Assembly: GCF_015277895.1 (NCBI RefSeq)
Contig: NZ_CP063815.1
Coordinates: forward strand, 1-64,000
Direction: 5' to 3'
Source: Microbacterium abyssi
GTDB lineage: Bacteria; Actinomycetota; Actinomycetes; Actinomycetales; Microbacteriaceae
DNA: 64,000 bases
The translations under genes were made by a program, and so were the position numbers. Under the pieces are notes generated by a model that was not told the DNA's origin, did not search any database, and saw only the letters and a program-made list of their open reading frames with translations. Each line of letters starts with the position of its first letter. Positions within the stretch are counted from its first letter, which is position 1. Below are positions 9,822 to 16,890 of the stretch, in pieces.

Positions 9822-10222
9822 GCACAGTAGCCGACAAGCTGGCGAAGAAGTCCACGCGCAAGACCGGCGGCAAGCAGGTCCGCCTGCGCCTGGTCTATGT
9901 CGACTTCTGGTCGGCCGTGAAGCTCTCCTTCCTGGGCGCCGTCGCGCTCGCGATCGTGACCATGGTGTCGTTCTTCCTGATCTACCTCGTGCTGCAGGCG
10001 ACCGGCCTGATCGCCGGCGCCGGCGACTTCGTCGGGCAGATCACCGACAACGCGGTGGATCTGCAGGCGCTGCTGGGCCTGCCCCAGGTGATGGCCTTCG
10101 CGGCCGTCGTGTCGATCCTGAACCTCATCGTGGTGACCGTGCTCGGCGCCGTGGTCGCGGGCATCTACAACCTCGCGGTGAAGGTGACCGGCGGTCTGCT
10201 GGTCGGCTTCATGTCGAACTGA
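9818..10222 (+). CDS. DUF3566 membrane protein (134 aa)
   Basis: This small membrane protein is found immediately after gyrA in many actinobacteria; its function is unknown. A basic N-terminal tail (residues 1-25) precedes one transmembrane segment (about 35-60, [24 protein letters not shown]) and a second (about 88-115). The region in between, [22 protein letters not shown], fits the family. The ATG overlaps the gyrA stop (ATGA), and a strong terminator follows 11 bases after the stop, ending the gyrB-gyrA-DUF3566 unit. Confidence 0.88.
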
Positions 10223-10232
10223 CGATCTTCTG

Positions 10233-10266
10233 ACGAATGGCGGATGCTGCGGCATCCGCCATTCGT
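10233..10266 (+). terminator. Strong hairpin terminator after the gyrase unit
   Basis: A perfect 15-base-pair stem (10233-10247 with 10252-10266) closes a TGCG loop and is followed by CGTTTCC. It contains the window's common word GGATGC/GCATCC on opposite arms. It ends the gyrA/DUF3566 transcript. Confidence 0.85.
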
Positions 10267-10365
10267 CGTTTCCTGGCTCCCGTCATGCGGGGTACGGAAA
10301 ACCCGAACCGACCTCTCCGGCTGACTCGGTGTCGGCATCCCTGGCGCGCGGCCTACGTTTGAGGC

Positions 10366-15182: not shown

Positions 15183-16262
15183 TCAGCCGCGCCGCCGCCG
15201 CACGCCTTCGGCCAGCGCAGCGAGCGCATCAGTCGTGGCATCCCAGCCCATGCAGGCGTCGGTGACGCTCTGCCCGTAGGTCAGTCGCGTCCGCCCGGCC
15301 GACACATCGAGCTTCTGCGCACCGGCCACGAGGTTGCTCTCCAGCATGACCCCGGCGATCGGGGCGCCGTCCGCCGCGAGCTGCGCACCGAGTTCGCGGG
15401 CGACCGCGGCCTGGCGGATGTGGTCCTTGCCGCTGTTGGCGTGGCTCGCGTCGACGATCACGCGCGGGGTGAGCATCGCGGCATCCAGACGGGCGGCCGC
15501 CTCGGCCACGTGGGCGGCGTCGTAGTTCGGGCCGTCTGCTCCCCCACGCAGGATCACCGAGGTGTCGGGGTTGCCCGTCGTCGCGACGAGACTCGCGCGC
15601 CCGTCGGCACCGATCCCCAGGAACGCCTGCGGAGCGGATGCCGCGGCCGCAGCATCCAGCGCCACCTGAAGCCCGCCGTCCGTGCCGTTCTTGAAGCCGA
15701 TCGGCATCGACAGGCCCGACGCCAGCTGCCGGTGGATCTGGCTCTCCGTGGTCCGCGCACCGATCGCACCCCATGTGATGAGGTCGGCGGTGTACTGCGG
15801 GCTGATCGGCTCGAGGAACTCCGTGGCACACGGCATCCCGAGCGCCGTCACGTCGCGCAGGAAGCCGCGCGCCATCCGCAGGCCCGCTTCGATGTCGTGG
15901 CTGCCGTCGAGGTGCGGGTCGTTGATCAGGCCCTTCCAGCCGACGGTCGTGCGGGGCTTCTCGAAGTACGTGCGCATCACGATCAGCAGGTCGTCGCGGT
16001 GCTCCTCGGCAGCACGCACCAGACGGCCGGCGTACTCGAGCCCAGCGGCGGTGTCATGGATCGAGCAGGGGCCCGCGACGACGAGCAGACGGTCGTCCTC
16101 CCCCGCCATGATCGCTCGCACCTCGTCGCGCGTGCGGGAAACGAGGGCGGCCCGCTCGTCGCCGATGGGCAACTCATCGGCGATGTCGCCCGGCGCGGGG
16201 AGCGTCGTGAATCTCGCGACGTGCAGATCGGCGGTGGTCTCTGTGGCGTGAATGGTGCTCAT
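15183..16262 (-). CDS. aroG: 3-deoxy-7-phosphoheptulonate (DAHP) synthase, class I (359 aa)
   Basis: This enzyme condenses phosphoenolpyruvate and erythrose 4-phosphate, the first step of the shikimate pathway. Class I motifs are present: GPCSIHDTAAGLEYA, MRTYFEKPRTTVGWKGLINDPHLDGS, PCATEFLEPISPQY, WGAIGARTTESQIHR, GFKNGTDG and VDASHANSGK. Length fits the E. coli AroF/G/H type. I start at ATG 16262 (MSTIHATETT). Upstream in the same transcript lie a Trp/Tyr/Phe leader peptide and a terminator-like hairpin, so expression is probably attenuated by aromatic amino-acid supply. The gene symbol stands for the family; which feedback inhibitor it senses is not evident. Confidence 0.95.
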   Translation of the reverse strand: MSTIHATETTADLHVARFTTLPAPGDIADELPIGDERAALVSRTRDEVRAIMAGEDDRLLVVAGPCSIHDTAAGLEYAGRLVRAAEEHRDDLLIVMRTYFEKPRTTVGWKGLINDPHLDGSHDIEAGLRMARGFLRDVTALGMPCATEFLEPISPQYTADLITWGAIGARTTESQIHRQLASGLSMPIGFKNGTDGGLQVALDAAAAASAPQAFLGIGADGRASLVATTGNPDTSVILRGGADGPNYDAAHVAEAAARLDAAMLTPRVIVDASHANSGKDHIRQAAVARELGAQLAADGAPIAGVMLESNLVAGAQKLDVSAGRTRLTYGQSVTDACMGWDATTDALAALAEGVRRRRG

Positions 16263-16305
16263 GGGTCCTGTCCTGTGTGAAGGCGGACCCGGGATGCAGA
16301 GCCCG

Positions 16306-16398
16306 CCGAAACGGCGAAAGCCAGAGCGAATGCTCTGGCTTGTCGGCTCTGAAGGGTTGGTGCGCGCTACATCTGCGCCGGCCCCTCCAGAGCCGACT
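16306..16398 (-). promoter_or_regulatory. Predicted attenuator ahead of DAHP synthase
   Basis: On the minus-strand transcript four segments compete. Segment 1 is GTCGGCTCTGG inside the leader peptide (16387-16397), segment 2 CAGAGCCGAC (16342-16351), segment 3 CCAGAGC (16332-16338) and segment 4 GCTCTGG (16321-16327). Pairing 1:2 (10 bp) leaves 3:4 free to form a 7-bp terminator-like hairpin with an ATTC loop, followed by CTTTCGCCGTTTC. Segments 1:3 and 2:4 are also complementary. Segment 1 directly follows the Trp-Tyr-Ala-Tyr-Phe codons, where a stalled ribosome would cover it. Confidence 0.65.
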
Positions 16399-16426
16399 CG
16401 AAATACGCATACCAACGGGTTGTCAT
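16367..16426 (-). CDS. Aromatic leader peptide of DAHP synthase (19 aa)
   Basis: The peptide reads MTTRWYAYFESALEGPAQM and has Trp, Tyr, Tyr and Phe within five codons (residues 5-9). AAGG lies about eight bases before the ATG. Its TAG stop is 104 bases upstream of the DAHP synthase start, and the predicted attenuator overlaps it. An analogous leader for an aromatic-pathway DAHP synthase (aroR) has been reported in Corynebacterium glutamicum, as I recall. Length and position fit ribosome-mediated attenuation. The reading frame is certain; function is inferred from codon content and the overlapping hairpins. Confidence 0.7.
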   Translation of the reverse strand: MTTRWYAYFESALEGPAQM

Positions 16427-16446
16427 GCGAATGACCTTACCCCATA

Positions 16447-16890
16447 TCAGCTCGCCGCCTGCCGCACCCGCTCCGCCAGGAACGTCAGGTCTGCCTCGCT
16501 CAGCGCGGTGACGGCGTAGGCCGTAGGCCACACGTTGCCGTCATCGAGGTTCGCGGGGGCCTCGAACTCGAAGGTCGCGTAGCGCACCTTGAACTTGGAC
16601 TTCGGTTTGAAGAAGCACACCACCTTGCCGGCATCGTTCGCCCACGCCGGCATCCCGTAGTACGTGCGCGGCATGAGATGCGGAGCGTTCTCGGAGACCA
16701 TGGCGGCGATCTTCTCGCCCAGCATCCGATCGTCTTCGGGCATCTCCTTGATCTTCGCCGCGATCTCGGCGGCGCCCTCGGAGCGCACCTCCTCCGGACT
16801 CTTCTTCGCCCGGGACTTCGTGGTCTTGCTCTCCGCCAGCTTCGCCTTCATGGCGTCGCGCTCTTCGGCGGTGAAGTTCTTCTCGCTCAT
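16447..16890 (-). CDS. DUF1801 / YdhG-like protein (147 aa)
   Basis: A charged N-terminal segment (FTAEERDAMKAKLAESKTTKSRAKKSPEEVRSEGAAE, residues 5-42) precedes a DUF1801 (YdhG) fold: EKIAAMVSENAPHLMPRTYYGMPAWANDAGKVVCFFKPKSKFKVRYATFEF, about residues 60-110. The GMPAW motif is characteristic. The biochemical role is unknown. I start at ATG 16890 with GGAGA upstream; the open frame reaching 17067 overlaps the divergent aminotransferase gene. It is transcribed toward the DAHP leader, whose start lies 20 bases beyond its stop. Confidence 0.8.
   Translation of the reverse strand: MSEKNFTAEERDAMKAKLAESKTTKSRAKKSPEEVRSEGAAEIAAKIKEMPEDDRMLGEKIAAMVSENAPHLMPRTYYGMPAWANDAGKVVCFFKPKSKFKVRYATFEFEAPANLDDGNVWPTAYAVTALSEADLTFLAERVRQAAS

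Follow-up and report, generated by a model that had tools for sequence, protein, structure and literature searches.

A conserved aromatic leader with competing helices upstream of type-I DAHP synthase in Microbacterium abyssi and other actinobacteria: a candidate ribosome-mediated attenuator

The window analyzed here is a stretch of 64,000 nucleotides of Microbacterium abyssi (contig NZ_CP063815.1, positions 1 to 64,000). Its minus strand carries a type-I DAHP synthase (DAHPS) gene at 15183..16262, which was recognized in profile searches by PF00793 (E 1e-85) and TIGR00034 (E 6.8e-139). Upstream of this gene lies a leader ORF of 19 codons, MTTRWYAYFESALEGPAQM (16426-16367). It is separated by 104 nt from the DAHPS start codon, the ATG at 16262. 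The sequence bore out the original prediction, which had placed Trp, Tyr, Tyr and Phe at codons 5, 6, 8 and 9 of such a leader; these sensor codons are TGG TAT (GCG) TAT TTC. An Rfam scan of the window at the gathering score gave three tRNAs only and no family at the leader. The features of the locus, in the order of transcription, are the following.

16434..16439, minus strand: putative -10 hexamer TAAGGT, 7 nt before the leader ATG (from the sequence and related leaders)
16367..16426, minus strand: leader ORF MTTRWYAYFESALEGPAQM, stop codon TAG (from the sequence and homologues)
16406..16416, minus strand: segment a (GTTGGTATGCG), overlapping codons 4-7, partner of a' (from co-change of the a and a' sequences and shuffles)
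16384..16397, minus strand: segment b (GTCGGCTCTGGAGG), within the leader ORF (from shuffles and covariation)
16356..16366, minus strand: segment a', directly after the stop codon; a:a' crosses b:b'
16342..16355, minus strand: segment b', complementary to b, with a core (16351-16345) that is an alternative partner of d
16319..16340, minus strand: hairpin c:c' (16340-16332 with 16327-16319), without a long T-run (from covariation)
16299..16307, minus strand: segment e' (GGCGGGCTC), overlapping d, can pair with f; e':f excludes b':d
16297..16303, minus strand: segment d (GGCTCTG), alternative partner of b' (from pairing in alignment A1 and shuffles)
16282..16290, minus strand: segment f (GGGTCCGCC), candidate partner of e' or, via GGGTCC, of the ribosome-binding site
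16263..16274, minus strand: presumed DAHPS ribosome-binding site (AGGACAGGACCC), with f' = GGACCC at 16268-16263 (from the sequence and f:f' pairing)
15183..16262, minus strand: gene presumed to be regulated, a type-I DAHP synthase of the aroFGH family with 359 aa (PF00793, TIGR00034)

Because a:a' crosses b:b' and b':d crosses e':f, each would be an either-or choice, barring a pseudoknot.

The DAHPS gene of the locus was the single match when the genome of M. abyssi was searched with PF00793. The genome also has a type-II DAHPS gene (G000:C1:2085530-2086825). In the 450 nt upstream of the type-II gene, the aromatic filter was passed by one chance ORF only (with two starts), which lies inside the preceding gene. 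We also considered the idea that the mix of three residues reflects a genome with a single DAHPS; it was ruled out by the type-II gene, which is present in this genome and in 145 of 150 genomes of the family.

Related leaders were found, in genomes sampled by name, at the DAHPS loci of Microbacterium, Arthrobacter, Sinomonas, Brachybacterium, mycobacteria, Streptomyces, Glycomyces, Williamsia and Corynebacterium. Type-I DAHPS was present in 78 of 394 genomes of the class, 90 of 347 of the order and 16 of 150 of the window's family, so the gene is sporadic within Microbacteriaceae. In this family, the leader stood at 13 of the 14 full-length type-I DAHPS genes. A search for the leader pattern found it in 10 of 150 family genomes, and all ten matches were immediately upstream of type-I DAHPS. 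For the class sample, an aromatic leader was called ahead of 52 of 78 type-I DAHPS genes. The script rule accounts for 48 of them, and four (L131, L151, L156 and L158, with fewer aromatics) were recognized by eye. Another 25 genes had no leader, 23 of them in one family (f24), and locus L145 was unreadable (a run of N). In the whole collection the script listed 174 leaders. Eight were taken out (L049, L052, L078, L237, L242, L244, L186 and L187), including L186 and L187, whose genuine leaders the script had overlooked. From the 166 left, removal of identical sequences and of those not ending in ATG/GTG gave 157 leaders for comparison. The subsets comprised 154 sequences for folding with ribosome positions, 147 for Shine-Dalgarno (SD) access in forced folds, 145-146 for shuffle tests and 45 for a codon-by-codon scan.

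Some loci deviated from the common pattern. Family f24 contributes 23 type-I DAHPS genes to the class sample, and the script found an aromatic leader at none of them (e.g. L108, L110, L121-L125); the upstream DNA of L108 resembles that of Thermobifida fusca locus L045. Two adjacent type-I DAHPS genes are common in family f50 (L234-L251); a convincing leader was not seen in its 13 properly examined loci, and at five of 18 the script had anchored on the neighbour gene. The leaders of L041, L131, L151, L167 and L179 are poorer in aromatics and lack Trp, often with Arg instead, and b and b' are kept by eye. L016, from a record titled Sporosarcina beigongshangi, has an Arthrobacter-like DAHPS gene and leader and is perhaps a mislabelled or contaminated assembly.

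The mix of three aromatic residues, which the original prediction had offered as a possible novelty of Microbacteriaceae, turned out to be the norm across the class: 145 of the 157 compared leaders contain Trp, Tyr and Phe. Trp is found in the peptide of 148 of 157 leaders and within the aromatic cluster in 142 of 154. Inside clades the peptide shows strong conservation (e.g. RWYAYF..ALEGPA). The order and identity of its aromatic residues depend on the clade (RWYAYF, YWRFI, RRYPYF, RWYWRF, YFWF). The leaders have 228 TAT and 8 TAC codons for Tyr, and 144 TTT and 22 TTC codons for Phe. Comparatively, 103 DAHPS genes have 479 TAC and 10 TAT, and 753 TTC and 13 TTT. Thus, TAT and TTT predominate in the leaders and are rare in the downstream genes. 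The Phe codon of the window's leader, TTC, is a minority choice among leaders. From the start of the last aromatic codon to the pairing core, GGCY, the distance is 8 nt in 127 of 154 sequences and 11 nt in 21.

The hexamer TAAGGT looks like a -10 element from which a transcript is predicted to begin at the leader start codon, i.e. the ORF would be leaderless. Among the 166 related leaders, TANNNT ended 6-7 nt before the start codon in 160, compared with 1.7% of shuffled 16-mers. Our start picker favoured TANNNT located 3-9 nt upstream of the start, so the informative part is the clustering at 6-7 nt. SD-like tetramers were found in only six of the 166 leaders. Their start codons were ATG in 99 and GTG in 67. 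In the accessible part of a transcriptome study of S. lividans, the element is TAnnnT with 6.3 nt from -10 to start site (PMC8079986).

The leader RNA (165 nt) folded to -84.9 kcal/mol, versus -58.8 ± 4.1 in 200 dinucleotide shuffles, none of which was as low (z = -6.4). When the bases 5' of 16386 were removed, the 3' half of the first helix found a partner further downstream, as the original prediction expected. Segment 1 (16387-16397) is the core of b (16397-16384), and the predicted stem at 16321-16338 corresponds to c:c'. The further candidate pairings a:a', b':d, e':f and f with the ribosome-binding site had not been listed. The general proposal of mutually exclusive helices after the leader codons also held. 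In relatives, the peptide, the W/Y/F codons and the helices are conserved, and the helices covary.

We compared the helices with shuffled sequences in fixed windows. Segments picked for complementarity had given 142 of 145 for b:b' and 103 of 146 for b':d, which is circular. With fixed windows, pairing exceeded shuffles in 146 of 157 sequences for b:b', 76 of 151 for b':d and 35 of 157 for a with its window. By a harder rule, in which all 30 shuffles had to be beaten, the numbers were 125, 40 and 21 of 166 for b:b', b':d and a:a', respectively. Alignment A1 comprised 51 of 75 listed sequences (Micrococcales), with near-duplicates and most of the divergent Microbacteriaceae left out. The set b:b', c:c' and e':f was paired in 97.1% of its cells, and both sides had changed in 61 cells versus 13.8 shuffled (kinship uncorrected). 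Hairpin c:c' was paired in 100% of cells, with both-side changes in six of nine pairs, and e':f in 95.2%. The alternative b':d was paired in 98.3% of cells, yet both sides had changed in just one of seven pairs. Pairing reached 79% of cells for f:f' and 58-80% for a:a'. Alignment A2 comprised 50 of 74 sequences; redundant or poorly registered ones were left out by judgement, including L063 and L068 of Corynebacterium. Class-wide, 16 of 23 pairs of b:b' and c:c' had both-side changes, in 164 cells versus 51 shuffled (kinship uncorrected). Class-wide pairing was 97.7% for c:c', and sliding the helix partners cut pairing to 37-55%. In these alignments b:b' and c:c' covary, and the competing b':d has weaker support.

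The sequences of a and a' tended to change together. Among 88 leaders with GTTGG, CCAAC was found in 45 and CCGAC in 14 (one has both), with neither in 29. Five of nine leaders with GCTGG had CCAGC and four had none; CCGAC was found in 11 of 13 leaders with GTCGG and in two there was none. Pairing of e' with f exceeded shuffles in 57 of 146 sequences; the window's group contributed 11 of its 14 and the mycobacteria 15 of their 24. For f with the SD the number was 23 of 146 (none of 14 in the window's group, 11 of 24 mycobacterial), and in the window itself GGGTCC of f and GGACCC of the ribosome-binding site are complementary. Pairing of d with the SD exceeded shuffles in 26 of 146 sequences, 19 of which were among the 46 Micrococcaceae-like ones, and it was strong in L161 and L230; neither the window's group nor the mycobacteria showed it beyond the shuffle level. 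Because peptide, codons, spacing and helices recur in relatives, the leader element is more than chance.

We then folded 154 sequences with the ribosome modelled as a mask to A+12; this equilibrium folding ignores transcription order and allows pairing across a parked ribosome. Without a ribosome, the mean pairing probability was 0.54 for b:b' and 0.28 for b':d. A ribosome stalled at the first aromatic codon brought the two values to 0.85 and 0.05; at the last aromatic one they were 0.18 and 0.70, and with the ribosome on the stop codon 0.62 and 0.14. For the last aromatic codon with the edge at A+12, the two computations (154 and 45 sequences) agreed on b':d of 0.62-0.70 and b:b' of 0.18-0.19. 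In the codon-by-codon scan of 45 sequences, b:b' was 0.80-0.93 when the A site lay 14-20 nt ahead of the core, and at 11 nt it was 0.57-0.88; b':d stayed at about 0.7 for A sites between 2 nt ahead of the core and 16 nt beyond it. The outcome at the last aromatic codon (8 nt) depended on the edge, b:b' being 0.71, 0.42 and 0.19 for edges of A+8, A+10 and A+12, respectively. Trp and first-Tyr stalls led to b:b' at every edge tried. In the window, b:b' was 1.0 without a ribosome, 0.99-1.0 for stalls at W5 and Y6, 0.62 at Y8, 0.36 at F9, where b':d was 0.85, and 0.86 with the ribosome on the stop codon. The resting fold of the window is already b:b', so a stall at W5 or Y6 changes nothing at equilibrium and only F9 shifts the fold. 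The original prediction, in which a stall at any aromatic codon covers segment 1, thus survives only in part: F9, if the edge reaches A+12, and partly Y8 reach b, whereas W5 and Y6 leave b free and b:b' forms. Of 147 sequences with forced folds, 47 differed in SD access by over 0.1 between the two folds, 33 favouring b':d and 14 favouring b:b'; some automatic DAHPS start calls were wrong. Access was equal in the two forced folds of the window (0.41 and 0.41).

A covariance model of the element scored 88.5 bits in the window, which was among the training rows. It also gave a weak match at 10208-10291 on the plus strand of the window (23.3 bits, E 1e-5), probably a hairpin of another kind. Over 296 class genomes, strong matches (E 1e-9 or lower) were also found in one f27 genome and in ten f24 genomes, and the latter were without a type-I DAHPS match. 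These loci (L282-L291 and L293) precede a gene that joins a diverged DAHPS-like domain (PF00793) to chorismate mutase (PF01817). Five fusion proteins were scanned for domains, one of which fell under the PF00793 cut-off, and all eleven loci matched the fusion by tblastn, L290 only partly. At several fusion loci (e.g. L284, L285, L287, L288 and L291) the next long ORF looks like DNA polymerase III alpha. Nine of the weaker matches (L292 and L294-L301; E 1e-7 to 4e-5) showed no aromatic leader when inspected by eye. A family search gave model matches in 59 of 120 genomes. Among 30 of these loci that were read (L305-L334), the best match was the fusion in 27 and type-I DAHPS in three. The 31 fusion leaders contained Phe in all 31, Tyr in 21 and Trp in one (kinship uncorrected). 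The two readable type-I DAHPS leaders of the searched family had RWYWRF. The loss of Trp from the fusion leaders fits the place of the fusion gene in the Phe/Tyr branch, and it seems, as far as the sequences tell, that the sensor codons follow the pathway branch.

With moderate confidence, we propose a ribosome-mediated attenuator in which the supply of charged aromatic tRNAs sets the output of type-I DAHP synthase and b:b' is the "on" fold. Transcription would begin at the leader ATG, and the leader would be translated without an SD. A shortage of Trp-, Tyr- or Phe-tRNA would halt the ribosome on TGG, TAT, TAT or TTC. The halted ribosome would cover segment a, with segment b at or just beyond the mRNA entrance, and b:b' would form during the stall, making b' unavailable to d. 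The readout would most likely be at translation initiation of DAHPS, since no terminator was seen in the window: the free e'/d would pair with f and leave the ribosome-binding site open. When aromatics are plentiful, the ribosome would proceed over b, or depart and let a:a' form; b' would then be free for d, and b':d would release f, which would cover the ribosome-binding site of DAHPS. Conservation and covariation are the basis for the leaderless start and for both competing folds; the sign (b:b' = on) and the readout at the ribosome-binding site are inferred. Trp is kept before the enzyme of the common pathway and lost before the enzyme of the Phe/Tyr branch, so a Trp stall, which gives b:b', probably means "on". 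We lean towards this sign although some computations contradict it: the ribosome-free RNA of the 154 sequences, like the resting window, is mostly in b:b', and the pairing of d with the SD in 19 of 46 Micrococcaceae-like sequences implies the opposite sign.

The opposite sign is a serious rival, although we regard it as less likely. Translational attenuators of the erm type work by ribosome stalling that refolds helices, so that a ribosome-binding site becomes covered or exposed; unlike in these, the signal at the DAHPS leader would be amino acid supply. By an erm-like scheme, which is close to the original prediction, b:b' would be the resting "off" fold, a stall at the last aromatic codon (mostly Phe) would mask b and let b':d uncover the ribosome-binding site of DAHPS, and Trp and Tyr stalls would be neutral or repressing. 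This would agree with the resting b:b' of the window and its change to b':d at F9, with the dominance of b':d in the 154 sequences at the last aromatic codon (0.70 versus 0.18, edge A+12) and with the 33 versus 14 sequences whose SD is more accessible in b':d. The d:SD pairing of Micrococcaceae-like sequences points the same way, and Phe is the sole residue found in all 31 fusion leaders. In the accessible part of a review (PMC11802643), aroF of C. glutamicum responds to limitation of Phe and not of Tyr. However, an edge of A+8 keeps b:b' at 0.71 on the last aromatic codon, and d:SD was not above shuffles in the window's group or mycobacteria. The codons for Trp and the first Tyr stand too far ahead of b for a stall there to mask it, yet both have been conserved; before a gene that does not lead to Trp, the Trp has been lost.

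Classical transcription attenuation, in which the upstream helices would switch c:c' as an intrinsic terminator, is what has been reported for C. glutamicum; for the window it appears improbable. The original prediction had called the stem at 16321-16338 terminator-like, and we could not recognize an intrinsic terminator there: a terminator scan of 16150-16650 gave 0 terminator-like sites, and the c:c' hairpin is followed by TTTCGCCGTTT. The mean number of T in the 8 nt past the hairpin was only 2.6 in the window's group, counted from hairpins drawn by script that may include the first T's. A conserved alternative partner of c was not seen by eye in the leader sequences, and by eye the hairpin is absent from short leader versions (e.g. 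L164, L195, L196). Segment d is transcribed only after c', so b':d would come too late to control c:c'. Nevertheless, c:c' is the most fully paired helix class-wide, and L063 and L068 of Corynebacterium have TTTTGTC after c'. In addition, 24 of the 31 fusion leaders have a run of at least four T within 35-110 nt after the leader stop, located directly at the hairpin in 21 by eye. It is highly improbable that the nascent peptide arrests the ribosome on a free aromatic compound (TnaC-like) instead of the codons sensing charged tRNA, for despite the strong conservation of the peptide within clades, aromatic order and identity vary between them, whereas the spacing from the last aromatic codon to the RNA segment and the choice of TAT/TTT are almost invariant.

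We tentatively put forward a broader reading. There may be one RNA switch of Actinomycetia, without an Rfam match in the window, that serves two non-orthologous genes with pathway-matched codons: Trp, Tyr and Phe before DAHPS, and Phe (with or without Tyr) and no Trp before the fusion. It would act on translation initiation through a relay of helices where there is no terminator, and the last codon, mostly 8 nt from the switching segment, would let any aromatic shortage lead to the same fold.

In the trp and pheA attenuators of E. coli, the leader contains codons for the end product and successive segments pair alternatively. The window's leader likewise has end-product codons and alternative pairing. 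Unlike the E. coli systems, it has no U-tracted terminator that we could find, its ORF is probably leaderless, and three amino acids are combined in one leader. Another case, named in the original prediction, is aroF of C. glutamicum, whose aroR leader with Phe-Tyr-Phe is described as ribosome-mediated attenuation, and as acting on transcription, in the accessible parts of two reports (PMC11802643, PMC4046766). As aroR is described there, the two have in common an aromatic leader ORF directly before type-I DAHPS and competing helices downstream. In Corynebacterium, L063 and L068 carry WRFYF leaders whose spacing to the core is the same. The window's leader differs in having Trp and in that no terminator was found, while aroR, by the same partial texts, has Phe-Tyr-Phe and responds to Phe only. 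The best reading of our analysis is that the leader would be a ribosome-mediated attenuation akin to aroR of C. glutamicum, with a wider reach and possibly another output. The LEU element in the actinobacterial leuA leader has no typical terminator and has alternative folds that involve the SD box, as given in the accessible part of PMC1262725. It concerns another gene, other residues and other helices, and its Leu codons pair with the SD box (PMC1262725, same part). In that part, the survey of Seliverstov (2005) states that no conserved structures were found for phenylalanine or tyrosine operons (PMC1262725).

The searchable literature on aromatic attenuation in actinobacteria consists of trp leaders and the aroF leader of C. 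glutamicum, and our search, with subscription papers mostly outside it, found no work on a DAHPS leader element in actinobacteria beyond C. glutamicum. If our interpretation is true, many DAHPS genes would be joined in one regulatory family by covariation, a leaderless ORF, inverted codon usage and branch-matched sensors. The two gene contexts, DAHPS and the fusion, would then be a natural test of codon-specific sensing. The leader element might further serve to steer the production of aromatics in non-model actinobacteria.
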